Assembly: GCA_014871385.1 (NCBI GenBank)
Contig: CM026428.1
Span: 294,653-358,652 of the forward strand
Direction of reading: 5' to 3'
Length of the DNA: 64,000 bases
Origin: Ceratodon purpureus
Taxonomy: Eukaryota > Streptophyta > Bryopsida > Pseudoditrichales > Ditrichaceae
Shown in pieces: positions 9,000-64,000 of the stretch. The stretch's first letter is position 1. Each line of letters opens with the position of its first letter. The translations under genes and the position numbers were made by a program. Under the pieces are notes generated by a model that did no database searches, was not told the origin of the DNA, and was given only the letters and a program-made list of their open reading frames with translations.

Positions 9000-10466
9000 A
9001 TGGCGAGACCACGTAGACAGAAAATGTTAGTGTCCATCGTGTTGCTTCTTGCATACAAGTGCGTTCTGAATTGTGCATTGACTCGTATGTAGTCAGCCAT
9101 GCATTCCAATGACTTGTCAATTCTTATGATGGTTTTCTTAATGTTGGAAGGTGACTCGAGGCCACGGACAAGGACTCTTTGGAAATACAATAGACAACAA
9201 GGTTTTTTACGTAATCAACTGTTGGGAAGTTACACTGATAAAATGTTTCGAGATCGAATGAGGGTCAATAAGGAGACTTTTTATTTTCTATGTGACCTTC
9301 TAGCACCCAGCATTAAAAAAATTGATACTCCTATGACATCTAGTGTGAACATTGAAACTAGAGTCGCGGTTACCCTTGCTAGACTTGCAACTGGTAATAC
9401 ATTATCTATGATTGGAGACTTGTACGGTATAGCAACCAACACCACCTCCGTAATTGTACGAGAGTGTTGCAAAGCCATCAAAAAACATTTGTTACCTATA
9501 GTCATTGATAAAATGACTCGAAGCAAAGTGAAGACAATATCTGATGAGTTTGAATCTCTGAAAGGTATACCTTATATAATGGGTGCAATTGATGGTTCTC
9601 ACATACCGATTATGGCTCCAAGCAAGGAAGCTCCAGAATATTATTGTCGGAAAGGATATTACTCGGTACTTTTACAAGGTATTGTGGATGCACAATGTAA
9701 GTTCTGGGTCTTTGATTTTGGATGGGCAGGAAGTTCTCACGATTGGTCTGTATTTCAAAGAAGTACTATTGGTCAAAATGTTATGAAGGATAATTATTTA
9801 CCTTACAAATTAATAGGGGATGCTGCTTATCCTATGAGGCCTTGGTTTTATAGCCCATTTAAAGGAGTAAAGGAAGGATTGTCAAGAGAGAAGGCTCATT
9901 GAAATTACATCCAATCAAGCACGAGGATGGCGGTTGAAAGAGCTTTTGGATGCTTGAAAGGACGGTGGAGGATTCTTCTTAAACGAATTGATGTGCCTTT
10001 AGAAAATTTACCTGATATTGTTACAGCTTGTATTTGCTTGCATAATTTGTGCATTATACATGGTGATGGATTCAATTTGCGTTGGGCAAGAGAAGCAAAA
10101 AAAGATATTCAAGATTATTCAGACAAGCAATTTGGTGACTTGCAAAATGCATCTCATGACGTTGAAGACCTAAATATTGCTAAAGATTCCATAAAGCAAA
10201 TGCGAATAATACTGTTGCCTCCACAAGTCGCCCCCCAATCTGAACTATTACAATATGATGGAGAGGATCCAGAAACCTTAGAAGACACTACTGGAGAGAA
10301 ATCTACAACATCTAAAAAAGAGAAAGAGGAAATTATTAAAAGGATGTTAGTACAGGCTACTACTCAGCATGAGATGATGGCGGATAATTTTTGGAAGTTG
10401 CACCTAGCTAGTGAAAGCAAAATAACGTTTGATGAGGGAATGGATGTAGATAGTGAATCTGAGTAG
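9000..10466 (+). pseudogene. PIF/Harbinger transposase (HARBI1-like) with two in-frame stops
   Basis: One reading frame runs from ATG at 9000 to a stop at 10464-10466, broken by TAG at about 9090 and TGA at 9900-9902. The DDE nuclease is clear: GAIDGSHI (first Asp), FGWAGSSHDWSVF (second Asp) and SSTRMAVERAFGCLKGRW (Glu). An N-terminal helical DNA-binding segment (TRVAVTLARLATGNTLSMIGDLYGI, here split as VAVTLARLATG and SMIGDLYGI) precedes it. The acidic C-terminus ends MDVDSESE. Homologues read straight through the position of the TGA, before NYIQSSTRM. The two stops suggest this copy is dead, unless an intron or read-through rescues it. Confidence 0.85.
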
Positions 10467-25382: not shown

Positions 25383-28300
25383 TCACCAGTAATCACCACA
25401 GGAGCACACACCATCTTTGAAGTGGTGAAAGCGATATGCATCTTTAGCCACAATCTCTCGCCCAGCCACTTTCGATATAAACTTAGTTGCTGTGTGGCAA
25501 TCTGAACATACCCGAAGATTCTTGTATACACGAATTGGCTTCCCACTGTGAGGAGAGCGCATGAGTCCGTAAGCGATAGCCAGCTTCTCACTGTGAGAGC
25601 AAAGGGCTAATTCTTTGGCGTCCTCGTCAAAATTGCGTAATACAAGGCGGGTGTCAGGCACATACCCTTCAGCCTTCAATTTTTCGCTCAACCTCTTCAG
25701 CACAGCATAAATTTCCTTGGTTTCCGGGTGGGATGTATCTCCAGCGATAAAATAGTGGACCTCGTTGTCAATCACAATCCAGCTGCGCCCTGGGTCCTTG
25801 TGAATACCTCTGCCCTCCATCATGCTGCGCACCAATGACACTTGGTCCCACATGCCAGCTGCAGCGTAGATGTTAGAGAGGAGCACATACGTCCTGGCAT
25901 CCTTTGGATCCAACTTGAGACACTCTTTGGCAGCAAGTACACCCATCTCTAAATTTCCGTAAGATCTACAGGCACTAAGGAAGGCTCCCCAAGGTACTAA
26001 ACTTGGCTCCACTGGCATGTTGAGAACGAAGTGTTTAGCTTCATCCAAGTGCCCTGCCCGCCCAAGTAGATCTACCATGCAGGTGTAGTGCTCCATGGTG
26101 GGTTCTATGCCGTAGTCTTGAGTCATAGATAAAAACTGGCGACGACCTTCATCGACAAGGCCTGCATGACTACAAGCCGACAAGACCGCCACAAATGAAT
26201 ACCCGTTCGGCTTCACACCGTTTGCTCTCATTTTTTCAAAAAGCTGTAATGCTTCATGCCCACGCCCGTGCTGTGCAAGTCCACCGATCATTACGGTCCA
26301 ACTGATCACATTGCGTTCATTCATTGTGTTAAACACTATTCTGGCATCATCTATACTACCACTTTTCGCATACGTGTGAATAAGTGCACTGCCTACACGC
26401 AAATCGGATGCAATCCCCGCCTTGATAGCGTGCCTGTGTACTTCCCTCACCCATTCAAAATCCGCTACGCTTGCACTGAGAAGGCTCACATAAGTGAACA
26501 CATTTGGGACACAACCTTCCTTCTGCATTTGAAGAAAGAGTAGGAAAGCTTTCTGCGCACACCCGTGCTGCGCAAACCCACTAATCATGGAATTCCATGT
26601 TGTAACAGAACGTCCCACCATTTTGTTGAAAACCAGTTGGGCATCATCGATGCTGCCACTCTTTACATACGAGTGAATTAGCGCATTGCCCACACGCAGA
26701 TCTATGTCCAGTCCCGCTCTAACAGCATGACTATGAACCTCCTTCACCCATTTTGAAGCTCCTTCGCTTTCACTTGCACTGAGGATCCCCAGATAAGTGG
26801 TTGAATTTGGTTTAAACCCTTCTCTCTGCATCTGAAGAAAGAAGGATAAAGCTTCTTGCACATACCCGTGTTGAGCAAGTCCAGCGATCATCACGGTCCA
26901 AATAATTGTATCGTGATTCACCATTTGGTTAAACACAAGCCTGGCATCATCAATACTGCCACTCTTAAAGTACATATGAATCAGTGCGCTGCCCACTCGC
27001 AAATCAGATGCTAGGCATGCCTTGACAGCGTGTCTGTGAACTTCCTTCACCCATTCCAAAGAACCAGTGCTCGTAGACACATTGAGAATACTCACGTATG
27101 TGGTCGCATCTGGAACAAGCCCCTCTCTCTGCATCTGAAGAAAGAGTGAGAACGCGTTCTGCCCACAGCCATGTTGAGCGAACCCCCCAATCATTGCGTT
27201 GAATGTAACAACATCGCGATCCTCCATTTCGTCGAAGACTACTCTGGCATCATCAATACTACCACTCTTGGCATACATGTGAACAAGTGCATTACCCACA
27301 CGCAAATCAGAAGCAAGTCGCGACTTGACAGCGTGAATATGAACCTCCTTCACCCAATTCAAAGCCCCTGCGCATGCGCTTGCACTTAAGATGCTCAGGT
27401 ATGTAGTTGCATCTGGAACAAACCCTTCCTTCTGCATTCGGAGAAAGAGGGAGAACGCTTCCTGCCCCAACCCGTGTTGTGCAAGTCCACCGATCATCAC
27501 ATTCCATGTGACTACATTGCGTTCGTTCATTCTGTAAAAAACTAATCTTGCATCATCGATACTGCCACACTTGGCATACATATGAATAAGCGCACTGCCC
27601 ACACGCAACTCATGTGCGAAGCCTGTTTTAATAGCGTTAGTGTGAACCTCCCTCACCCATTCTAAAGCCCCTGTGCTTGCATTGGAATTGAGGATGCTCA
27701 GATAAGTGACTGGATTTGGAACAAAACCCTCCTTCTGCATCTGAAGAAAGAGAGAGAACGCTTCCTGCCCACACCCTTGTTGAGCAAGTCCACTAATCAT
27801 TGCATTCCATGTGATTATATTGCGTTCCACCATGTTATCGAAGACCAGTCGGGCATCATCAAGACTACCACTCTTGGCATACATATTGACAAGCGCAGTC
27901 TCTACACGTACATCTGGTTGGAAGCCACCGTGTTTGATGTGAGCATGAATTCCTTTGCCCCACTGTAAACCTCCTGGGCTGGCGCATGCCTTCAGAATGC
28001 TCAAGTAAGTAATCTCATTGGGCTGCTCACCTGCTTGACGCATCTGGTCATAAACTTCGAGCGCATCTCTGGCACGATCATGCTCAGCATAACCTCCAAT
28101 CATGGTTGTCCAATTAAAAACATTCTTCTCCGCTAGTTTATCAAATACTTCGCGTGCATCCTGCAACCTCGCACACCTAATGTAGACTTTCAAAAGATAA
28201 TTGGCCACGTAAGGATTCTGCTCCATTCCACTATTTTTTATGCAATTATGGACCTGCTTAGCCGATACAAGGTCTTTCTGCCTAAAGCATCTTTGCAGAA

Positions 28301-28511
28301 TATCCAGATATATGTTGGTATCTATGGTAATGCCTTGTTGCAGATTTTTCTTCAGAATAGCAACCTTTTCTCTCGTTGCACTTGCTTTTTGAAGGTGCTT
28401 ACCAACATCAACTGGTGCAGCTCGCCTCCTCTCTGTACTGCTAGGTCGAGGATATACCTTCCCATTGCTCTTGGGCAGCCTGCTCATCAAAAGAACACAA
28501 ATTACTACCAT
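25383..28511 (-). CDS. PLS-class pentatricopeptide repeat protein with E and DYW domains
   Basis: An intronless 1042-residue frame. PPR repeats run from about residue 65 to 780, with seven P-L-S triplets marked by [WF]N-x-MI[GS]G-type helices. The central triplets are near copies (GQEAFSLFLQMQKEGFVPN recurs with small changes). E1/E2 motifs follow. The PG-box region has KDPGRSWIVIDNEVHYF. The DYW deaminase has HSEKLAIAYGL (zinc ligand and catalytic Glu), RVCSDCHTATKF (CxxC) and the terminal CSCGDYW. Such proteins bind organellar RNA and deaminate C to U at specific sites. The first Met gives MVVICVLLMSRLP; the Met nine codons in is an alternative. The N-terminus is a poor targeting peptide, which bears on the possible fusion with the OSB gene just upstream. 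Confidence 0.95.
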   Translation of the reverse strand: MVVICVLLMSRLPKSNGKVYPRPSSTERRRAAPVDVGKHLQKASATREKVAILKKNLQQGITIDTNIYLDILQRCFRQKDLVSAKQVHNCIKNSGMEQNPYVANYLLKVYIRCARLQDAREVFDKLAEKNVFNWTTMIGGYAEHDRARDALEVYDQMRQAGEQPNEITYLSILKACASPGGLQWGKGIHAHIKHGGFQPDVRVETALVNMYAKSGSLDDARLVFDNMVERNIITWNAMISGLAQQGCGQEAFSLFLQMQKEGFVPNPVTYLSILNSNASTGALEWVREVHTNAIKTGFAHELRVGSALIHMYAKCGSIDDARLVFYRMNERNVVTWNVMIGGLAQHGLGQEAFSLFLRMQKEGFVPDATTYLSILSASACAGALNWVKEVHIHAVKSRLASDLRVGNALVHMYAKSGSIDDARVVFDEMEDRDVVTFNAMIGGFAQHGCGQNAFSLFLQMQREGLVPDATTYVSILNVSTSTGSLEWVKEVHRHAVKACLASDLRVGSALIHMYFKSGSIDDARLVFNQMVNHDTIIWTVMIAGLAQHGYVQEALSFFLQMQREGFKPNSTTYLGILSASESEGASKWVKEVHSHAVRAGLDIDLRVGNALIHSYVKSGSIDDAQLVFNKMVGRSVTTWNSMISGFAQHGCAQKAFLLFLQMQKEGCVPNVFTYVSLLSASVADFEWVREVHRHAIKAGIASDLRVGSALIHTYAKSGSIDDARIVFNTMNERNVISWTVMIGGLAQHGRGHEALQLFEKMRANGVKPNGYSFVAVLSACSHAGLVDEGRRQFLSMTQDYGIEPTMEHYTCMVDLLGRAGHLDEAKHFVLNMPVEPSLVPWGAFLSACRSYGNLEMGVLAAKECLKLDPKDARTYVLLSNIYAAAGMWDQVSLVRSMMEGRGIHKDPGRSWIVIDNEVHYFIAGDTSHPETKEIYAVLKRLSEKLKAEGYVPDTRLVLRNFDEDAKELALCSHSEKLAIAYGLMRSPHSGKPIRVYKNLRVCSDCHTATKFISKVAGREIVAKDAYRFHHFKDGVCSCGDYW

Positions 28512-33689: not shown

Positions 33690-34317
33690 TTAATGGTAGC
33701 AAGTCTTTTGTCTAAGATTGGAAGAGGATCTTCCCGAAGCTCTTTAGAGACACTGATCACAATGTCCACAAGTGTCTTAAAAATTCCAATATCTGCTTGA
33801 TGGAGTATATCAACATTGATAGCAAGATAGGGATTCCCAAAATCCGTATACCCTCCAGCAAAATCCCACAACGCACACTACATAACAAAATACAACAATG
33901 TCTTCAAAAAATGTTATTTAAAAAATTAAATTGAATTAAATTAAAATATGTTAAATTAAAAACTAATAATAATAATAATTTTGTAGATATTTAAATTAGA
34001 ATAAAAACTTTTGTAGTAATATATAATATTGGCAGTTTAAGATGAATTATATACCTTAACCGGATGTAGAGAATGACTTTTGGACAATAGAAGAAGAAGA
34101 GAAACTACGGTCTCCGGAGGAGACCAAAGTGAATAAAGTGTCTGTTTGATCCACCCCCAAGCCAATGCCCACAGGAAGTATGGAAGTAAAGATCTACTCC
34201 CCCCTTTCGAGAGTAGACACTTTAGTCACAAAGTAACTAGTAACCAGTAACCAGTAACTAGTAACAAGTAATAGTAGTGATTATCTTCTCAAGATTCATG
34301 TGATTGCAATTTTGGAC

Positions 34318-34405
34318 ACCAAGCCACGAGCTCATTTGTTGGTTGGAGGTGAGCATTTGTCTCATTTATCTGGTCCAGGTTCGAACCCTGATGGACTCGT
34401 TTGAG
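34318..34405 (+). repeat. tRNA-like A/B box segment (possible SINE) in the LINE 3' region
   Basis: A perfect B box, GGTTCGAACCC, stands at 34378-34388. An A-box-like TTGGTTGGAGG lies about 40 bp upstream, within GAGCTCATTTGTTGGTTGG. This spacing fits a tRNA-derived RNA polymerase III promoter as in plant SINEs. I found no target duplication, so the extent is uncertain. Confidence 0.45.
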
Positions 34406-34597
34406 TGGATGTGGGGGATGAAGTGGCTTGGTACTGCTGAGTGAGCGATCGCAGGTAGTAGATGAGTTGTGCCAACCAACAGCCCCCTTTGCGAGAAGTT
34501 GACAAGAGACTTGACACCCGTATGCTAACAATTTAAATAAAGTAGCTCTAGCTACTAAAAATTTTATTTGTATTTTTATTATAAATTTGGATTTTGA

Positions 34598-37500
34598 CTA
34601 TGGGGGATCTAATGTTTCGGATAATGGTTGGTGGTTTTCTATTCTTCTTTTGTGAAGAAGAATAGACATGGCATATTGTATGGCAATAGTGTTTATGTTT
34701 TTAAAGGTGTTTTTGATGGTAGGCATAGGTATTTTGAAATTGTCTACAAGTAGTTTCATTGATGGAATGTGTGTAGTAGCTCTAGCGCCTGCTGTGATGA
34801 CAATAAGGGGGTCAACTTTCCATCCTCTAGTGGTAATACTGGCAATTAATGGATTGTATTTGTTGGTTTTAGCTTCAAATGTTTCTGGTGAGAATCTGTC
34901 GTTGCAGTATGTGAATCAATGAATTGTATGGTAAGATTGGGGTTTATTTCTGTAGGGGGATCACTTTGGTATGGTAAACCTTTAACGCAAAGAATGTCTG
35001 GTCTATATTTAGAGTTACAATGACATCTTTGTGTGTCACATGTGCATGGAAGTAGCCAATTGGGAACGGTATTTTCTGAGGGTTTATCATTAAAGGTGCC
35101 CGCGTTCATTAGAATAAAACAACGAGATTTTTCGGATGAGACTAGCAGTTTTCTAATTTCCCATACTGCTTTGTTGTGTCTTTTGACTCGGAGGGAGTGT
35201 ATATGTTGTTGTTGGCATGTGAGTAATACATGTAGCCATGTATCCGGTTCATGTGAATTGCAAATAGGACATGTGATAGATGGAAATCTTTCTCTTCCAA
35301 AAAACATTTGTTTTCTAGCTTGGCCTATGTAGGTTCCCGTACGGCATTTTATGAGGCATGATTTTTGTTTGTCAGTGATGGCTGGATTTTCCCAAAATTC
35401 ATTAAAAAGTTCATTGTCTATGTCTGCATTTCCCGTCCATTTGCAAATGTTGGGGGTTTGTATGGCCATGATTTTTAGATTGTTTTCTCTGTCATATTTT
35501 TTGATTTGTTTTTCTAGAGTTCTAACTGGTCCTTTGTCTGGAACATCATTTCTCGAAGGCCAGTTATCTTTTTGGAAGTAGAATGGAGTGGCATGGGCAT
35601 GTTCGTATGAGTGTAGGGTTTTTCTATGTCCTAGCTTTAGGCCTTGTTTTGCTAAGTAATCTGCTTCTTTGTTGCCATCAATGTTGATGTGTGCTCTAAC
35701 TTTGTATAGTGATATTGGTTGTGTTCTTTGTTGGAGTAGTTCTACTATACAGGCAAGTGTGGTTTGATCGGGGTGACTATTATGTAGTGTGGGATGTTTT
35801 ATTTGTGTATTAAGTAAATATAGTACATTTAGGCAGTCGGTAAATATGTATGCTGGTTCGTTGGGGAATTGTGTGTTAATAATTCTGAGTGTTTTGTGTA
35901 TTGCCATCATTTCTGCACGTAGTATATTTTGGTGTCCGTGGAGTCTTTTGGGGATATTGAGACCTTTGGGGCTGTAAATACCGTATCCGGCTCTTTCTCT
36001 TCGCCATTTACCGTTGCCAATTTCTTTTGGGGGTTTAAATGATCCATCTGTGTAATAACTGAATTGGGGGTGGAATTTTAGTGGTAGATTTGTTTGGTAG
36101 TTTGGTAGTTGTGGGATAGGTGTTGAGTTATTTGTAGAGGTGTTTGGATAATCTAATTTGGACCATTTTTTACTAGGATTGACATGGGTGTTTAAGGGAG
36201 TTGGGGATGCAATTTGTGTGTGAATTTGTAATATTTGGAGATTGTTAATTGTATGAATGAGTTGATTCATTGGTTCGTGAGTACCTATGTTGTTGTTTTG
36301 GTGGTGGATAGAGAGTATTCTGAGCGTAGACAGTTCTTTTCTTTCAAGTTTAAGTTCGGGGAGAATTGTTGGCTCTTCATATGTAATGGTGTCTGCAGCA
36401 AAATGGGCAATAATGGGTGAGTCCGGGAATGGGCCGGTGTAAGGATTAAAGTTTTGGTACCAGTTAGTGTCTGGAGAGATGAGTATGGTCATAGTGTTTG
36501 GGTCATTTTTTGCCGCAAGGCCGGCCCAATGAATGGCTTGTTGTAAGTCGGTTTCATTGTGGGGGTGAGCGTAGCCAATTCCTTTCCATTTATGATCAAA
36601 TGCTTTCCCTAGGGAGCCAAATATTATATCTCGTGAAAATGGTGAGTAAAATTGGGTAAATTGTGTAGGGCATGTAACTGGTGATGAAAAGTAAGATTGG
36701 TGGATGTTGAATGTTGCTATTAGTAAGTCTAGTATTTCAGTTGGTATTGTATATTGAGCACATTTAAGTGGATCATTTTTTGGAATACAATATTTATATC
36801 TTTGATATAGCCACACAATTTCAGTTTCAAATGATTGGGTGGATGGCTCAAGGCCGTGTGGGGTATTTTTTGCATGTTGATATTGTTTCCATAGCCATAG
36901 TAGTCTAGTTTTCGGGATGGTGATGAGGTGTCGGCCATTATCTTCGTATATATGTGCGACGTCATGTTGTGTTTGGATAATGTTCGAGTCCGTTTCAATG
37001 TCATTTTCTGGATTGCATTCATTAATAAAGACATGTGCTAGTGGAATAATTGTGGCCGGAGTAACGTATCTTGTATCTTTTTGTTGTTCTATGGAGAAGT
37101 GTTTTTCGATGATGCTTAAAAAATGTTTATGTTGTTGTTTAGTGTAGTATTGGGTAAGTAATTCAGTATTGTGGAGACAAGTGTTATTGTTACTCCAAGG
37201 GAAAAGTTCACTTTGACTACGCCATTTGTTGTATGTGTTATTATTTGGCGTGGTCCATTGGCATAGATATGTTGTATCTTTATAGTTTATCCCATTTGGA
37301 TCTTTGATTTTATGTTGTTTGTGGTTTAGTATTGTGTGTATGGGGAATTGTCTTGGATATTTAAGCATATGGTTGGGAGGAGGAGGAAGTTCGGGAATAG
37401 GAGGGTTGGGAGGGTGCATTGGGGGGATCGGTTGTTGTGGTAGGATGTTGTGGTTTAATAATATGTAATAATTTTTTAGAGTTCTTGGGGGGAAGTGGAA

Positions 37501-38469
37501 TCGGAATCGGCATGGTATTTGGCATCTTTGATGGCAAGTGGGTTGACAGAATAATTGACTAGCAATATTTAGCGCACTTTTTATGAGTTTTGTGGGGTTG
37601 GAGTGGTATATTTTAAAGTCGTCTAGATTCATTAGGGTAGTACCGTTAGGCATGGTTATTTGTTCTAAATTTATTATATTATGTAATAGTAGTTTTTGTA
37701 ATAGTTTGAGAGAAGTTTTGGGGTTTAGGCCTTGTAGGTATTGTACTTCTTGCATCCATGCAGTTTCGAGTGGGGATGGGTTTAATAAAAAAAATTCTAT
37801 TGTGCTTTTAAGGTGGACTCCAGCTTCATGTTTAAGTAAAAACAGTGTTCTAGTGATAGGGGATCTCGTACAATCTTGATATTTGATGCGGTCTATTTCT
37901 TCGGAGCCTCCAAATTTTGCAAGTATGAATTGTATCAAGCCAAAGTATATTTTACCGAGTCTGCCTTTGTCATTGAGAGCATTTTGTAATTGTTCTCTAA
38001 TACATCTTAGATATGCATTTTTTAATGAAAAGGCTTCCATTCCGAATAGATCATGTGGGAGTTGTGTAGCAATATTAGATGTACTTTTTGGTAGTCCACA
38101 TATTGTTTTGTGGAGTGCTATGATCTTTTTGTCAAGTTTTCTAATGGATGGCATAGAGTATGGTACTGCGTAGAAGCTGTATGCAATACCGGCACGTATG
38201 ACTATATCGGCCATATTGATTTTTTGTTTCATAGTGGCTGGGCAAGCCACTAAGGCTTTGCATTGTTTGATGACTTTAGCCGTGGTGGTGTTTATTTGTG
38301 TTTTCCATTTAAGTGATGGTGCAAGGTTTATTCCAAGGTATGTATAAGGGTCATGTTGGTCCAAAACTAGTATTGGTTGGTTTTTGTAGTTTATATTGGT
38401 GGCTTGGATCTGTGCTTTGAATGCTATGGGATTCATTTTTGATTTATTTGGGCAGATACAACTTGTCAC
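34598..38469 (-). pseudogene. retrotransposon ORF2, C-terminal part: RT thumb, RNase H, CCHC and restriction-like endonuclease
   Basis: The frame from 38469 to 34846 encodes the RT thumb (YLGINLAPSLKWKTQ), then a long linker. RNase H follows with YYTDGSFK (Asp), ILRAEMMAI (Glu), IFTDCLNVL (Asp) and NKEADYLAKQ (Asp). Then come CPICNSHEPDTWLHVLLTC (CX2CX9HX4C), KRHNKAVWEI (RHN motif) and KYRPDILCVKG (RPD), the ordered signature of restriction-like endonucleases. A one-base shift near 34920 moves the last block (FTYCNDRFSPET, GWKVDPL, ITAGARATTHIPSMK) into another frame, ending with TAG at 34598-34600. Confidence 0.85.
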
Positions 38470-38590
38470 CCCTACAAAAGTTCTCTTTTGGACAATGTGT
38501 GCTTAGTGAAACTGTTAGATGAGGTGCAATATGTCTGCCCTACAAGGGCAGGGCTCAACAGATTTAAATATGAATCAGTGCAATGATTCG
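38470..38590. mobile_element. 121-bp insertion in the RT coding region
   Basis: GTCAC stands at 38465-38469 and 38591-38595. Removing one copy plus the 121 bp (126 bp, 42 codons) joins KCAVT to CICPNKSKM in one frame and removes three stops. No terminal inverted repeat is visible. Confidence 0.6.
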
Positions 38591-40118
38591 GTCACTGCAC
38601 ATTTAGATATACCAAGATCCATTCCAGCCCATTTGCAAAATTTGTCTAATTTATTTAGTTGTATTTGTAGTGATGCTAATTTGTTGGCAATAGCTGCTAA
38701 ATCATCAGCATATGCTGTAGATGAGATTGTAACTTTGGATGTACCAAAAGTGTATCCATTGTCACCTTGTTGTAACCATCTAAGAAGTGGTTTTAAAAAT
38801 ATTATAAATAGATTTGGACTAAGAGTATCTCCTTGTATTTTTCCTCTTTGGATGGGAATAGGTAGAGTTTTACCAAAGTGTTCTCCAGAAAATATAGTAG
38901 AGGATTGTGAGTATATATTTCCTATCAGGTTTATGGCATCGGTTGGGTATCCAAGATCTTTCATTATGGCTAAGAATCTCGCATGGTCAATGGAGCCAAA
39001 AGCATTTTTGAAGTCAATGTAGAGAATATATATATCTTGATTTGTAAATCTTGCATCTTCTAAGGCTGCAATAAGTAGTTGAAGTTGTCTGGATGTTCCT
39101 CTTTCTGCTCGGAATCCTTCTTGGCTGTCATGCAGAATTTGATGTCTTTCGCCGTAAGTGGAAAGGATAAAGGTTAATGTGCTAGTAAAGAGTTTGTATA
39201 TGGTGTTCGCTAAGGCGATAGGCCTATGGTTTGTAAGTTGTGATGGTTCACTTTTTTTATATAATAAGACAGTTAGACTAGTTTTCCATGTTGCAGGTAT
39301 TTGTTTTTGTTTGTAGCAGTGTTTAAAAAATAGAAATAGTAATTTGTGGAATCGTGGAGGCATATTTTTCATAATAGAGTTAGGTAGTTTGTTTGGGCCT
39401 GGGGCTTTGTTATTTCCTAGGTTTTTGAGGCATAATCGTAAGTTTCTTGGTCAAAATATGTGTGTAGGGGGATTTGTGGTTCTCCGCGTTGATCAATTGT
39501 GAATCCGTCCAAGTCATGCCATGGGTATTGTCTGACGCTGCATGTGCATTGTGGAGGGTGTGTATTTTGATAGTGACATGTGGGGACTGTTGGCCGGTTG
39601 CTGATAGATTGTTGAATGTATATTTCTTGAGCAATGTCTTTCGGACTAGTTAAGATGTTATTTTGTCTATCCATTATAGAGTCAAGAGGTGAAGTTTCAG
39701 AGTTTTTGAAGACTTTTCTATTTACTTTTTTGGGGCTTTTTTCATACAATTGTTGGTATTTTGATATGGCTTTGCGGATGCAATCTTTAGTGTATTTTGT
39801 GGTTATTTTCCTGGCTTCTTTGTTAGCAGTTTTTGCGATATTAGCTATGACATCAATCCATTCGTTCGGTATAGAGTCCGTTACTGGTGGGTGTGGGATT
39901 TGTACGTATTGGTGGCTACATATTTCGTTCAGTATAGGGTGTGTTTGCCATTCTGGGTTGTTTTTTGCGATGTATATAGTTTTTCTGATAAGATGATATG
40001 TGTCAAGGTGTTTTTTCCATTCTTTGGCTAGTTTTCGAGGTAAAAAGCCGCCTTGTTGCTTTGTTCTATTTGTGAGTTGTGGTAGTGGGGGTGCGTTACA
40101 TGTTTTTTCAATGGTTTC
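38575..40118 (-). pseudogene. retrotransposon ORF2, reverse transcriptase palm/fingers
   Basis: Going down from 40118, the minus frame runs from a TGA stop (40119-40121) through KSPKKVNRKVF to 39417. It then shifts near 39430 into the frame with NNKAPGPNKLP, NHRPIALANTIYKLF, EGFRAERGTSRQL, YIDFKNAFGSIDHARF, GKIQGDTLSPNLF and AYADDLAAIA. These are the standard non-LTR RT blocks, with the catalytic YADD. Confidence 0.9.
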
Positions 40119-42197
40119 TCAGATTTTTTCTACGATTTTGTCTAAGGATGCGCAAGCTTCTTGCCATAAAGCGGGGGTAAGATGGTCATTATTTTCTAAT
40201 AGCTTGGTTAATTCATTTATTTGTATAGAATTTTTTTCAAAAAATTCATTATTAAATTTTTCCAAGTTTTTTGGAGGTATTGGGTTTAAGATTCTAATTG
40301 TTGGGGTAGTGATGGGGGCCGGTGATCTGGCTATCAATAGGTTTTGTGGAATGTGTAAAGTGACTGGAAAATGATCTGAGTTTAAATTCAAATTTGTGTT
40401 TGTCGTGGAGGTGAATCTAATATTGTCTAGGGATTTTATGTAGAAACCATCTATGAGGCTAGCTGATGTGTAGTTGTAGCCACCTTGTCTAGAGAATGTT
40501 GTGTTTGTTGGGATGTATTCTAGATTTAGTGAGTTGGTAAAGTTTTTCCATTGAATATCTTCTTCTTGTGGTGGAGTGTTGGTGTTGTGGTTTAGTCTTC
40601 CGTTTAGTGCTATATCTCGATTGAAGTCTCCACACAAGATGTATGTATGATTAGGGTGTGCATTTATTTGGTTTGTGATTGTAGTTTGGATGTGGGGAAT
40701 GAGACGGATGTCTTCTATGTGTGTAGGCATATATAAGTGTATGATTAACCATGGTAGTAATGGATGGTTGTTAATTTTTATTATTTGTAGATATGGGGAG
40801 ATGTTTGATGGTGTAGGGATTTTGGTAATATTTCCAGGGAAAGCATATTTATTGTGTATAAGTGTGAGTAGGCCTCCTCTTCCGGGATGTAGGGCATTCT
40901 TTGTTGCATGCATCTTGTGAGGGCATGTGTGTTATTAAAAATGAGTTTGTATTCAGGAAATAGATTTTGTATCCATTTAGTGGATTTAGTTGCTGTGAGT
41001 TTTGTTTCTGGGATGTTTATAATTGCCGTATTCCTTGAAGAGTTGTATAAGAGGTTTTGTAGGTTTGGTAAAGCTGTATTAAGTGAAGATGGATTCCAAG
41101 TTATTATTTTTGTTTCGTCATTAGTGTTGATGTTTATTCTCGGGGGAGGTGTTGAGATGTTTGGAAGGGGTGGTGGATGTGAGTATTCATTTAGACTTTC
41201 GAAACAGCGTAGAGTTTCAGTGATTAATTTATTTGGTAAGAAAGGAAATTTTCTTTGGAGTATGATAGGTGTTGGTGGTGTATCTTGGTTATGGATAAAT
41301 TTGTATAGTTCATCATGAATTGAGTTTTTTGAGGATATTAGGTCTTGGTTCATTTCAATGAATTTGGTATAAGGGTGTTGGGTGAGGATGTGTCTTTCCG
41401 GAGGGTTGTTTAGGTTGGCTAGTCTAATCATTACTGTATTAGTCCAAATATCATTGAAGTAGTAAATGCGGGGATGAGCTAATATATGATTACATGTATT
41501 TATTAGTGGGTGTATGGTAACGATTAATGCATATAGTATGTGAGGTATTGGGGATTGTATTTGTGTTTGTATATATTGATGTAGATGTGGAAATTCAATG
41601 ATTGCTTGATGGTGTAGATGGTGGTTAGTTTTTAAAATTGGAGCAAAGGAATTTGCAATGTGTTGGTATTCCGGGCGCAATTTGATTGTGCTAGGGATAA
41701 AGTATCTTCTAGCTCTTTTCTTATGTTCGGCTGGATGAGTTCTAAGTATGTTGGGCATTGGCCTTGGGTTTGATTCAATGTCCCCGCATTGAAGTAGGGC
41801 TAATTTGTTTACAAAGTAGTATCCTTGGTAAATGTCGATTTTAGGATTTTTATAATTTAATTTATAATACTTTGTTGTTATGAGTTTTGTTGTGTTGAAT
41901 AAATTAGGTAAAGCATGTATTGTTTGTTCTAGACTTAAAGGTAGGTAGTGCAAAGTTGTATTGGGTTCAGAGGAATGGTTTGTAATTGAGTTAGTAGACC
42001 AATTGTATATGTGTTGATTTGTATTCTTTTCGTATTTTATTTTCTCATGATGTTGATAGGTTTTATCTATTTTCACGTGGGGTTGGTAGGTAATGGTAGT
42101 AGAGTGTTTGTTAATAAGATTATGTTTTTGTATAATATCAAGGATTATGTGAGATTGATATCGTGAGAGAATTCTTTGTTTGAAATAAGTTCTATTT
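40119..42197 (-). pseudogene. retrotransposon ORF2, N-terminal part with APE endonuclease
   Basis: The frame 42197-40781 contains the 2A-like motif and the start of the endonuclease (ITWNPSSLNT, NIPETKLTATKS). After a frameshift near 40920, the frame 40913-40119 carries HPGRGGLLTLIH, YILCGDFNRD, ASLIDGFYIK and LNSDHFPVTL, the apurinic-endonuclease catalytic blocks (ETK, GDFN, SDH). Confidence 0.85.
41759..41803 (-). other. 2A-like ribosome-skipping motif (decayed)
   Basis: The minus strand reads LALLQCGDIESNPRP-MP. The 2A consensus is D-x-E-x-N-P-G-P. Only the Gly is changed, to Arg, explained by one transition (GGG to AGG). It lies between the HPK-repeat frame and the APE domain, in the same reading frame as both, as in other APE-type retrotransposons known to use 2A. 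Confidence 0.7.
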
Positions 42198-42199
42198 TT

Positions 42200-43399
42200 T
42201 TAATAGAATTTGACTTTTTGGTGGATTTTATGATTTGGATGAGTACTATGTTTTAGATGAAATTTAAATTCTGTATGTAATATAAATTTTGGATGAAATT
42301 TGAGGTTTTGGTGTTTTATGAATTTTGGATGAATTTGGAATTTCGAGTGAATTTGGAATTTTGGGTGAATTTGGAATTTTGGCAGAGTTTTTAATTTTGG
42401 ATGAATTTTTGGTTTTGGATGGATGGCGCGTATTGTATTTTCTACTTGTATGTTTGAAGAATATGTATATCTATTTGTATTTATTGGATTATGATTTGTT
42501 ATGGTATTGGGTATTAAATTGTTTATGAATTGATATTTGTATTTTGTATTTAGGCGAGGCCGGTAGGCCGAGGCCGTTTTATGGTTGAGTTTGATATAAT
42601 GTGGTAGTTGGAGATGATGTTTTGTACTAGGGTTGTATCCATGTTGTGTATGAAATTTAAGTGTAATTTTTGGGTTAAAATTGATTTTTAAATGGAGTTT
42701 AAGTTTTGGATGAGATTTGGATTTTGAATGGGCCTTAGATTTTGGATAAAATCTGAATTTTGGGTGAAGTCTGAAATTTGGATGAAATCTAACTTTTGGA
42801 TGAGATCTGAATTTTGGGTGAAATATGAGTTTTGGATGAAATTTGAATTTTGGATGAAGTTTGAGATTTGGATAAGATCTTAATTTTGGATGAATTCCAA
42901 ATTTTGGATGAAGTATAGATTTTTGATCAAATCCAAGTTTTGGATGAAAGTAGGTTTTTGGATGAAGGGAGTATTTTGGTTGTGTATTGTATTTGTACAA
43001 GTATGGAGTATAGTAATTATTTTTGTATTTCAAAAAGTATTCAAAACATTGTAAAATACTGTGTAAGGTATGAAAATATTCCGTATTTCTTCTAATATAT
43101 ACTATATGTACAAAACTAGGTCTAAATACAAATACGTATCTAGAGTACAGTGCTATTCTACTATAGACCATACATAAGGCCCTATTCATATCATTTGTCA
43201 CAAACTTGTTGTGAGAAATAACATGACTACCTACTATTTGTAACTGTGTGTTACAAGCACATCTATAGAATCCAAAACATTTACTGAAAACCCAGTATTC
43301 AGTCTGCAGCAGTTTACTACAAACATTGCAAATAAATTCTTCTTTTGATAATGAATCCAAAGCATCAATAACCAAACAGGCATCTGCAAGCTGCTGCAT
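42200..43399 (-). pseudogene. HPK hexapeptide-repeat protein upstream of ORF2 (ORF1-like)
   Basis: A 399-residue frame, in the same frame as the APE part below it and separated by a single TAA (42200-42202). Residues about 1-100 start MQQLADACLVIDALDSL and carry ICNVC and CACN cysteine pairs. Residues about 140-240 and 325-399 are two blocks of an imperfect hexamer [KR][FL]-x-[FIL]-H-P (for example KFRSHPKVRFHP), strongly basic. By position and charge it could be the nucleic-acid-binding ORF1 moiety released by the 2A motif. I know no named family with this repeat. The frame is open upstream of the Met through a 24-bp tandem repeat at about 43435-43510. Confidence 0.55.
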
Positions 43400-43640
43400 T
43401 TTTTCTCTCAGACCATCTGAATTCTGGCTGACTTTGCTGAACCTGGTTGGTCTGCGTTTGCAGAACCTGGCTGGTCTGCGTTTGCTGAACCTGGCTGCAG
43501 ATTCTCCACCTTTTCTCCTGCTCCGTCCAGCTACGGTGGTGGTGGCTCCGGATGTCTCGTGAGTTCAAGTCCCTGCGATTAAATTCCCAACCCTCCCCAC
43601 TACAAAGGCAAGCAAGGTACGTTATCGTTGTGCTTAGGGT

Positions 43641-44873
43641 TCATTTTTTCTTGATTTGCCTAGGTTGATGTGCATTTAATGTGTTGACGATGGGTGATGG
43701 AAGTAAACAGCTCTCTTCTTCCACTAATTTACTGATTCGTTTGGAATTGACTTTTCTAAATTGAAAGAGCACACCTGTGTGCGGCCAGCGGCAGTTGCAA
43801 GCAGAGCTGGCGACGCTATTCACCTCCCGCAGTTGCCTACTCCAGTTCTGCCACAGGTTGTTAAACAAGGTGCTGCTTGGATGTGTGTTTAGCAATTTCT
43901 GATGAATTTGGGAGAATGTATCGAATGTGAAAGGCAGAGGTTGGCAACAAGTGTGTGTTGTGTGGGTACGATGTGATGTAGGTTGTACAAGGGATTGGGG
44001 AGCAATGTAATGGATTTTGGTTTTTATGATGTGTTTAGTGTATTGGCTGAATATGTTTTTGCAGAGAAGGTGAGAAAACTTACCTGGAGCTGCTACAACT
44101 CGGGGAGGAATTCGTCTGTTGTGGCACTGGCCGGCTCTTGTAGCAGCGTCTTGCATCCTTGTGCTTTCCTTTGAGATTTTCAATAGGCTGGGATACGCAG
44201 GTGAATTTCTCCAGCGCAGCAGGCAATCGCAGACTCCTCCCGATCCTTCCTCAGGTGATTCGATTACTGTCTGTAGGGTTTGGTGCAGACGGGGCAGGTT
44301 GATGTGCTCGGTTTGGTGCAAATACAGCAGGTTTCGGTGCAGCAAGCTTGTTTTTGTAGCTGATTCGAGCGAGACGGTGGTCACAGATGTTGGCACAAGA
44401 AGTTTCGGCAGGATTCTCTTCACCAGCCGTACTGCACACGCAGAGAAATTGGCGTGAGATTGTGTGGCAAGAATGTTGAGTTTAGGAGACTTACCTTGGC
44501 TGTCGGGAGAAGCGAACCGATCTTGGTGTTGTCTCCGAATTGATGGCTGCTTGCGGTGTCGGGTGCTATGACTTCGGCTCCTCCATGCTCTATTGTCGCT
44601 GCTGCTGAGTTGGTGCGGTGTCGGTTTGGTGTTGCCTCTCGTGACTGCTACTATCTCTTGTCGAGCTGGGAATGGAGGCTGAGTATCGGTAGCCGACGTT
44701 GTTGGTGATGGCAGCTGACTCCGATGATGCCAGTTCCGTTGCTGGTGGTGGTGGGCTTGACGTCGGGGAGGTGAGCCCCAGCGTTGTTTGGCGTGCGAGT
44801 TGTAGCTGATTCTACAGTTGCTTCCGTGAATGTCGTCGTTGGCTATAGATCCGGAAAGAACGGATCTGAGCAA
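43641..44873 (-). CDS. retrotransposon upstream frame, basic, unrecognised
   Basis: A 410-residue frame starting MLRSVLSGSIANDD, rich in His, Arg, Gln and Ser in the first half (RRQAHHHQQRNWHHRS), then LLHRNLLYLHQTEHINLPRL and a C-terminus with LWQNWSRQLREV and ending RQIKKK. It lies inside the inserted element, between its 5' end and the HPK frame. It could be an ORF1 or leader coding region. I see no RRM, zinc knuckle or coiled coil that would settle it. Confidence 0.4.
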   Translation of the reverse strand: MLRSVLSGSIANDDIHGSNCRISYNSHAKQRWGSPPRRQAHHHQQRNWHHRSQLPSPTTSATDTQPPFPARQEIVAVTRGNTKPTPHQLSSSDNRAWRSRSHSTRHRKQPSIRRQHQDRFASPDSQGKSPKLNILATQSHANFSACAVRLVKRILPKLLVPTSVTTVSLESATKTSLLHRNLLYLHQTEHINLPRLHQTLQTVIESPEEGSGGVCDCLLRWRNSPAYPSLLKISKESTRMQDAATRAGQCHNRRIPPRVVAAPGKFSHLLCKNIFSQYTKHIIKTKIHYIAPQSLVQPTSHRTHTTHTCCQPLPFTFDTFSQIHQKLLNTHPSSTLFNNLWQNWSRQLREVNSVASSACNCRWPHTGVLFQFRKVNSKRISKLVEEESCLLPSPIVNTLNAHQPRQIKKK

Positions 44874-45565
44874 AAGTGGCGTCTCAGTTGTTTGCTGATG
44901 TTGTGTGTGCGGCCCAGTGGTCGTGCAGGTGCGGAAGTGAAGTTGCGGCTGTGTTGTACCTGCGCGGGCGGAGGATGTAGAGGTAGAAAACTGACTAAGG
45001 ATCTGCGAGTAACTAGGCCCACAACATGCGTTGGTTTGAGCGGAGACAAGGAGGTAATAGAGAGATGTAAAGAAGAGAAGTCGAAGCCAGCAGGGCTTCG
45101 TAGGCGGGTCGGCAGCAATCGTAAGTGTGTTAAGGTCCTGGATCCAGCTACTCGGTTGTTGTGTGAACGAGTATCATAGAGGTGTGCAGTCTAGATCGAG
45201 ATAAGAATGAAGCATTGGTATACTACGAGGAAAATGGAAGGGACAGCAACTTCCAACACATGTTCAGCTCAATCAGATAACATAGCTCTGTCTCTCCCAT
45301 ACACTCGTGCAACCACTTACAACTGCTAATCTTTACCGACGGCACACCAAACCCCTTCAACATTGTAAACCTCTCAACCGTTCACAACACACTGAATAGA
45401 CAAGGCGCGGGGGTTTCCAAGAGAGGCCAGCCACACTCTCTGGCTGCAACCTTTCACTCCAGCGGCAAACTCACGAGAGCCCTCACCAGGTTTCTCGGAG
45501 CTCTACTCAACTCTCATCCTCAACCTTCTTAATTAATTACTCGTAGCATGAAACTAATGGAGTTC
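44874..45565 (-). other. 5' leader of the retrotransposon
   Basis: From the target duplication (45566) down to the first long frame. GC-richer than the rest; presumably holds the internal promoter. Confidence 0.45.
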
Positions 45566-45955
45566 CTTTTGGACAATACATCTCTAGCTCTGCCTTGTAG
45601 TCTAGTTAAGTCTTGATAAATTTCTTTCATTGCAGGTTCAGTCCGATAGGCTACCATCCTCTCAACATTTGCCAAGTCATTTGTAGGCACCATACAAGTA
45701 CTACAAGGATGTTGTGATTTATTGGTGTCAAAAGTACACGTAACCTGTGGAGGGAAAAAAAATTTAACTTTTCCATTTTTAATCACTAAATAAACCTTTA
45801 AATTAAATGAAATAAATAAATAAACAAATAAGGTGAATTGTTTAAAATTAAATATTTTAATTACCTTGCAACCTTCTGGGTGATCAACCACATAAGAGTA
45901 TAACCTCGGATAAACCGTGTGCTCATTGCCGAAAGGATCTATAAGATCTAAACCG

Positions 45956-62526: not shown

Positions 62527-64000
62527 CTAAACGGCGACAGTCACGTCCTCGGTTTCATCGTGCTTCATAAAACGCTCGAACTGAACCTGTACCATTTCTC
62601 CACCACGAATTCCATCAAAGGAGCACCTGTAATAACTGGACAACGACCACAGCAAAAGTTATCAGCATGGGCTCAATGTGAGATCATTGCCAGAACGACG
62701 TGACAATACCACAAAGAATTAACAGACAACCTGAAATCTCACACAATTGCTACAATGAGCTGAAGAATGAGCTACAACAAGTGATATGCCAAACACATAG
62801 CTGGTTCTGTAAGACATGCCTGCCATTGGCGCCCACAATGACAACAGTATTTTTCTCTGGACCGAATGCAACGATTGTTCGTGTCTCTTCAGGCACGCGA
62901 TATTGGGCAAACGACCACTCCGAACTGAAGTATCTCGGCAGCACACCTGACACAAATTGTGGAAGTCAGTGGATGCGCACAACCTATTTGAGCGAAATAT
63001 ATCCCACTACATCTCAGCAGTGGCTTCAATGCAACAGAACAAGTCATCACAAAAGCCATCTTCAAAACCCAAACCAGAAAAACGATGACATCCCTTGTTA
63101 AAGCAGCCACACAGTGAAAATGGTGAAAAAATGAGAAAAGAACTGGCCTAAAGAAGAATAGTAGAGTTACCTCTAACAAGGGCCAATGGCGAACCAGTAT
63201 TTGCACTTGCAAACGAAATTAATGATGATGAGCGACCGAGTAAATAACTGCTGCGTCCACCAGATGAGGACACCGTAGTGGCTACAGCCGTAGAACGAGT
63301 TTCTCCACTTGGTGGCTTCAAACCGAATACATGCACAGTGCCCTTGTCACTAGACACTGCAAGCCAATGTGCATTTGCAGAGAAAGCAATACTATAAATC
63401 TCTGCTCGCTCAGCCCCTCGTCGAAGCTGCAAAAGATATACGTTTCCATGTAAACAATCCTTCAGATACTCCCGAATTGTTTTTCAGTGAGCCAGAACAT
63501 GCTGCCAGTAGTGCTTCTTCAAACACTCACACATGAGCAACAACCACTGAATCAAATTAAAGTTGAAGAATAATGACTACCCGATTCATTATCAACGGGC
63601 AGAGCTGAAGGACAAAACCCAGTTCTGTTACCTCTTGCAATTTCGAACCATCCCTTGTACTAAAGATGCGTATGAGAGTGCCCTTGCTACTAGCTGTGGC
63701 CAAGAAATCGCCGTTGTTGCTGAGCGCCAGACATGCGACGGTCGAGTCGTGCGCCTGCAAAAACCGGGTCTTCTTGACACTATATAGCTCTATCCGAATC
63801 TCCCCAGGATGCTGCCCAGGGCATGCAAGGACGCATGAAGCTGGTCCAGAGGACAGTGCGCAAATAGCCTTCGTATTAGCCAATGTTTCAATCTGATGAA
63901 GCAGCTTCAGGTCAGCAAAATTGTACACATAGATCTTGAATTCGAGCACGATCACAATTTTGTCCCTCCGAAGACGGACAGCTCGCACTTCACTCCTGAA
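62527..64000 (-). CDS. ATG18: ATG18 (WIPI/PROPPIN) autophagy protein, 3' part
   Basis: Minus-strand exons: 63632 to beyond 64000, 63171-63426, 62820-62946 and 62527-62635 (TAG at 62527-62529). They encode WD-repeat blades of a [63 protein letters not shown], then [16 protein letters not shown] with the LRRG phosphoinositide-binding motif. [17 protein letters not shown] and [16 protein letters not shown] follow. The protein binds PI3P on autophagosome precursor membranes. Phases agree at every junction. The intron between exons 62820-62946 and 62527-62635 uses a GC donor (CAG then GCATGT). The N-terminal exons lie outside the window. Confidence 0.93.

Follow-up and report, generated by a model that had tools for sequence, protein, structure and literature searches.

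Elements of the Dualen group, reportedly defined by Kojima and Fujiwara in 2005, and R2 are the retrotransposons closest to the locus described here. R2 lacks an AP-type endonuclease (APE) and RNase H and inserts at one ribosomal DNA site. Dualen/RandI elements of Chlamydomonas and its relatives, bring together an APE, a restriction-like endonuclease (RLE) and RNase H within single elements of the green lineage (PMC4640811, PMC8226300), and Dualen-type elements are cited as evidence that APE-encoding long interspersed nuclear elements (LINEs) arose by RLE replacement (PMC4640811). Our analysis of a 64,000-nucleotide stretch of the Ceratodon purpureus genome (contig CM026428.1, positions 294,653 to 358,652; hereafter the window) identified at 34090..45565, on the minus strand, what we read with a probability of about 0.82 as a land-plant member of the Dualen/RandI type of non-LTR retrotransposon, of very large size, present as a 5'-complete mutated copy without ORF1 and with the mechanism proposed below.

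This element is filed as Dualen/RandI-like by its domain plan, the reverse transcriptase (RT) clade having been compared without any labelled Dualen sequence. It differs from described Dualen/RandI elements in its land-plant host, and may also differ in its copies of 13.6–14.7 kb, its separate ORF1, its 2A motif and its chromodomain-like and PCIF1-like domains. Within the literature searched, the traits that appear to be new are the domain derived from a cap enzyme, the presence of a 2A motif, the size of the element and its occurrence in a land plant.

Domain plan of the element

An earlier interpretation made from the letters of the window (the sequence-only reading) had proposed APE blocks, a YADD reverse transcriptase, RNase H and RLE-type C-terminal motifs on the minus strand, where all element features given below lie, and each of these was recovered. 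The APE (40350..41110), spread over two frames in the window copy, matched PF14529 (Exo_endo_phos_2, 1.4e-7) and showed six motif blocks, with TWN, ETK, GDFN and SDH present. The RT core with YADD was located at 38590..39252 (RVT_1, 9.3e-26), RNase H at 35638..36060 (PF00075, RNase_H, 4.1e-12), and a CCHC zinc knuckle with the RLE, which switches to the other frame for its final part, at 34601..35430, where CPIC-X9-H-X4-C, KRHN and RPD were all found. All seven PDB matches of the C-terminus at E <=0.001 were R2 retrotransposon proteins (5e-7 to 4e-5) and the next were PD-(D/E)XK cap-snatching nucleases, a structural result in agreement with the restriction-like assignment. An APE N-terminal to the RT, a C-terminal RLE and RNase H, the features of Dualen/RandI, were thereby all present in one element. 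Each of five nuclease motif patterns was found 26–29 times in the 30 loci fetched from the genome (window copy included).

While this two-endonuclease plan was upheld, the sequence-only reading was incomplete, as it had missed a PCIF1-like domain, a chromodomain-like fold and a 2A-like motif. The predicted fold at 37101..37338, comprising three strands and a helix, resembles a chromodomain, a likeness that is suggestive only; the VIA fold search lists fold types incompletely and absences there were given no weight. The 2A/StopGo-like sequence (41759..41806) reads NPRP in the window copy and NPGP in all six other long copies read, upstream of the APE part, as GDIExNPGP in five of these, which conform to the core (D/G/C/N)(V/I)ExNPGP, and as GDMEPNPGP in the remaining one. 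DxExNPGP was also found in 17 of 149 homolog entries, 16 of them being GD(I/V)ExNPGP; entries among the rest may end short of this site. 2A-like sequences in non-LTR retrotransposons are described for trypanosomes and sea urchin, which differ from this family in host (PMC4981915). That a mobile element of a plant should naturally contain a 2A is notable, since according to a recent survey plant viruses make no natural use of StopGo (PMC12846837).

As shown by sequence, predicted structure or selection, the order of ORF2 is a basic HPK-repeat region, the 2A-like motif, APE, RT, the chromodomain-like fold, the PCIF1-derived domain, RNase H, and an R2-like zinc knuckle with restriction-like nuclease. 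The basic N-terminal region (41807..43149) contains an 18-bp minisatellite coding HPKxKI-type repeats; this minisatellite lies within coding sequence at 42251-42421 and 42704-42979 and is the source of those repeats.

PCIF1/CAPAM is a cap-specific m6Am methyltransferase with a catalytic NPPF motif. Its counterpart in the element, at 36244..36990 between RT and RNase H, matched PCIF1_WW (PF12237, 1.3e-10, Pfam) and the PCIF1 methyltransferase-domain fold and retains the SSPxT and RDxxFGSxG segments. The NPPF position, set by the 6irv-P0035 alignment and A3, is occupied within the retrotransposon polyprotein by AHPH in 28 and VHPH in one of 29 motif readings from the 30 own-genome loci, whereas the Asn is kept in four relatives as NPEY (P0034, P0035, P0091) or NPPP (P0032). 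No LINE with two endonucleases and a PCIF1-derived domain was found in the openly licensed literature, a scope outside which Repbase and most subscription papers fall. It may be that reviews on adenine methylases note domains of this type in retroelements of algae. The sole literature match with both PCIF1 and non-LTR concerns m6A on human L1 RNA (PMC8324889).

Insertion, family copies and selection

The interval 34090..45565 given by the sequence-only reading was exact, as the 13-bp direct repeat TATTGTCCAAAAG (as read on the minus strand) directly borders the element as an upstream target-site duplication at 45566..45578 and a downstream copy at 34077..34089. The window copy is 5'-complete but mutated and dead, and has no detectable ORF1. 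Its APE is split by a frame change, an in-frame stop occurs at ~40119, further frame changes lie near 39417-39450 and, within the nuclease, near 34900, and ~130 extra bases near 38455-38585 are missing from all five copies compared; this damage accounts for the scatter of the motifs over several frames. Programmed frameshifting from APE to RT was considered and rejected, since the breaks in the aligned stretch are indels of one base, most of them within homopolymers and not at a fixed position. One APE-RT frame break was common to three loci, and that of c3_L010 lies elsewhere, outside the aligned stretch.

The family is repeated, as had been claimed, with at least 39 genome matches at 81–100% identity to the 1,218-aa C-terminal frame; these include the window copy, one copy gives two rows, and 38 of 1834 candidates were scored, making the count a lower bound. 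The repeat claimed at 1-300 of the window was also present but degenerate, with 79-279 being 67–73% identical to the nuclease/3' part of the family and having the orientation of the element. Two subfamilies were distinguished at 89–95% and 81–82% identity to the window copy. Among seven long copies read, the window included, five had target duplications of 12–14 bp; c10_L026 had a 10-mer match only, possibly by chance, and c1_L035 had none within the fetched stretch. The size of 11.5 kb in the earlier reading holds for the window copy, and c3_L010, also without ORF1, measures 11.4 kb; what had been overlooked was the missing ORF1 and the larger copies, three of which, with ORF1 and clear ends, measure ~14.7, 14.2 and 13.6 kb. 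ORF1 is 542, 547 and 607 aa long in three aligned copies, overlaps the ORF2 frame and gave no significant Pfam match.

The 5' leader (43150..45565) is, judged by sequence, part of the family: 1.2–1.8 kb of it recur at 90–93% at four further sites in the genome, and additional matches are weaker or shorter. One sense frame is open over 510 codons in the window (43641-45173) and over 510–1238 codons in all five copies (the others being loci L039/L044, L042/L045, L043 and L046), and shuffles (200 each) reached at most 271. The pN/pS was 0.60–1.26 in nine upstream windows (6 of 15 pairs) in comparison to 0.00–0.47 in ORF1 windows, aligned windows below 60% identity or 50 codons being dropped. Because a long open frame is combined with high pN/pS, the leader is kept open without much protein constraint; cutting of the leader from the enzyme by 2A would explain both properties in copies without ORF1. 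Plant splice-site-like sequences (GGTAAGT ... CAG) were also seen by eye in the leader at 44432-44500 and 43775-44090 (minus strand).

At the other end, the 3' untranslated region (UTR; 34090..34597), delimited by sequence reading and 3' alignment, ends in a hairpin (GGTCTCC-TCC-GGAGACC, 34109-34125) and a pyrimidine tail without poly(A). The same ending was found in the 29 of 30 loci with a readable 3' end, whose diverse flanks showed no single target site and thereby differ from the single rDNA site of R2. The last 500 bases are kept in blocks across 27 aligned copies, three of the 30 loci having been omitted as they lacked the tail pattern. Strongly conserved blocks at 34250-34480 (minus strand) include a T-arm-like palindrome, GGGTTCGAACC(C/T); a tRNA-like 3' UTR was nevertheless rejected, as ARAGORN and Rfam found nothing.

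The ratio of non-synonymous (dN) to synonymous (dS) substitution between c7 and c10, which belong to different subfamilies, was 0.08 for APE, 0.03 for RT, 0.11 for both the chromodomain-like and PCIF1-like domains, 0.13 for RNase H and 0.08 for RLE, with dS of 0.8–1.6 across domains after 2A, in comparison to dN/dS of 0.48 and 0.37 in two parts upstream of 2A. Nearly the same values were obtained for c7 and c1_L029, and the very close pair c7 and c1_L035 gave noisy values (APE 0.13, PCIF1-like 0.28, RLE 0.06, chromodomain-like undefined). All domains after 2A are under purifying selection, and the low dN/dS therefore indicates that both endonucleases and the PCIF1-like domain are maintained. 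Between c7 and c10, ORF1 and the repeat region were close (dS 0.2–0.4) and the downstream part divergent, while c7 and c1_L035 showed the opposite pattern, with dS about 1 upstream of 2A and 0–0.1 downstream. These reversed patterns imply that 5' halves (ORF1 and repeats) and 3' halves (enzymes) have been swapped between subfamilies near 2A (loci L036/L039, L026/L040 and L035/L041).

Outside Ceratodon, Parachlorella kessleri (Trebouxiophyceae) shows the plan piecewise, with APE and RT in P0027, RT followed by PCIF1 in P0024 and RNase H in P0022 and P0023. The RLE is beyond the reach of these four proteins and is present in P0021, which has 69–81% identity to Parachlorella proteins over aligned parts, and in other homologs of unassigned species. 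A single frame of P0091 encodes APE, RT, PCIF1 and RNase H, and the C-terminus of this protein reads, by eye, as the same CCHC/RHD/RPD nuclease, with the CCHC, RHD and E motifs recovered by patterns. Phage and viral-contig searches gave no relatives.

Three other features of the window were a PPR protein of 1,042 aa, encoded in a single frame (25386-28511, minus strand) and bearing E, E+ and DYW deaminase domains, which is of the plant organelle RNA-editing factor type and in keeping with a land-plant genome; a Harbinger/PIF-like DDE_Tnp_4 transposase (9093-10463, plus strand) whose frame is split by one in-frame stop; and, at the edge of the window, part of a gene for a PROPPIN, an autophagy WD40 protein (63560-64000, minus strand).

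Alternatives, proposed mechanism and meaning

That the element is an ordinary L1- or I-type plant LINE with a C-terminal zinc motif merely resembling an RLE is very improbable. Plant L1 can also have RNase H (PMC4640811), and in the RT profile search Bombyx R2 (4.5e-19) fell below human L1 (1.9e-21), but the best R2 (1.9e-39) stood above it, and the structural match of the C-terminus is R2-specific. In an RT tree of 19 rows (24 minus five near-identical), with three R2 and human L1 as references and without I, RTE, CR1, CRE, plant L1 or Chlamydomonas Dualen, the own-genome row and homologs including P0027 and P0091 formed one clade (100/99) apart from R2 and L1. The RT did not nest with L1, of which human L1 was the sole representative, and grouping the 12 nearest rows with it, leaving out P0027, P0091 and P0100, was rejected (p-AU 0.0026; I-type RTs outside the tree). 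The RT phylogeny suggested in the sequence-only reading thus went against a human L1 grouping on these few references, and the tree speaks only against L1 because L1Hs and R2Bm form long branches and most LINE clades are absent. A one-off capture of a host gene, or an error of assembly, is scarcely credible as the source of the PCIF1-like part in place of a family trait. LINEs are able to carry host sequence, and our comparison was made without the host's cellular PCIF1, but the motif was read 29 times in 30 own loci, and PF12237 follows RT in Parachlorella P0024 and lies between RT and RNase H in single-frame P0091.

Use of a single endonuclease, with the other a relic, is improbable. Most LINE groups need just one endonuclease, and R2 cuts with its RLE alone; against this, dN/dS in the element is equally low for APE and RLE at dS of about 0.9–1.2 between lineages, and all six other long copies have the full set of motifs searched for in both. 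Somewhat less unlikely is continued activity of the PCIF1-like domain as an RNA adenine-N6 methyltransferase with an altered catalytic motif, marking the element's own capped RNA, as the domain's fold, its SSPxT and RDxxFGSxG segments, purifying selection and the Asn of the four relatives could be taken to indicate. The AHPH or VHPH of the own-genome loci argues otherwise, as does Drosophila PCIF1, described as catalytically dead yet binding the polymerase C-terminal domain (PMC9916840).

In the mechanism proposed for a Dualen/RandI-like element, ribosomes would skip at 2A and release a clean enzyme of ~2,350 aa from the fast-evolving N-terminal part. The chromodomain-like fold may guide the complex to chromatin, and the RT would recognise the structured 3' UTR and, from a nick, start target-primed reverse transcription. 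Labour would be divided between the two nucleases, most simply as one per strand, or with one choosing the target and the other nicking, and RNase H would remove the template. In these copies the PCIF1-like domain has neither the catalytic Asn nor the Phe of NPPF, and its likeliest role is to bind and not to methylate, the partner being either the element's own RNA at its capped 5' end or the transcription machinery. A wider proposal, tentative and with the odds against it, concerns a whole ancient branch of green-lineage LINEs that spans trebouxiophyte algae and mosses. This branch would have a descendant of the cap m6Am enzyme of its own, acting as a writer in the lines that keep Asn and, in mosses, as a reader of the cap or the polymerase. 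In this way the retrotransposase would check or mark its own 14-kb RNA at the capped 5' end, either ahead of insertion by the two endonucleases or while it takes place.

Near-intact land-plant copies with both nucleases under selection make the division of labour between them directly testable. A LINE-borne PCIF1-like domain also links retrotransposition to mRNA cap biology and provides a setting where a cap enzyme may have shifted from catalysis to binding.
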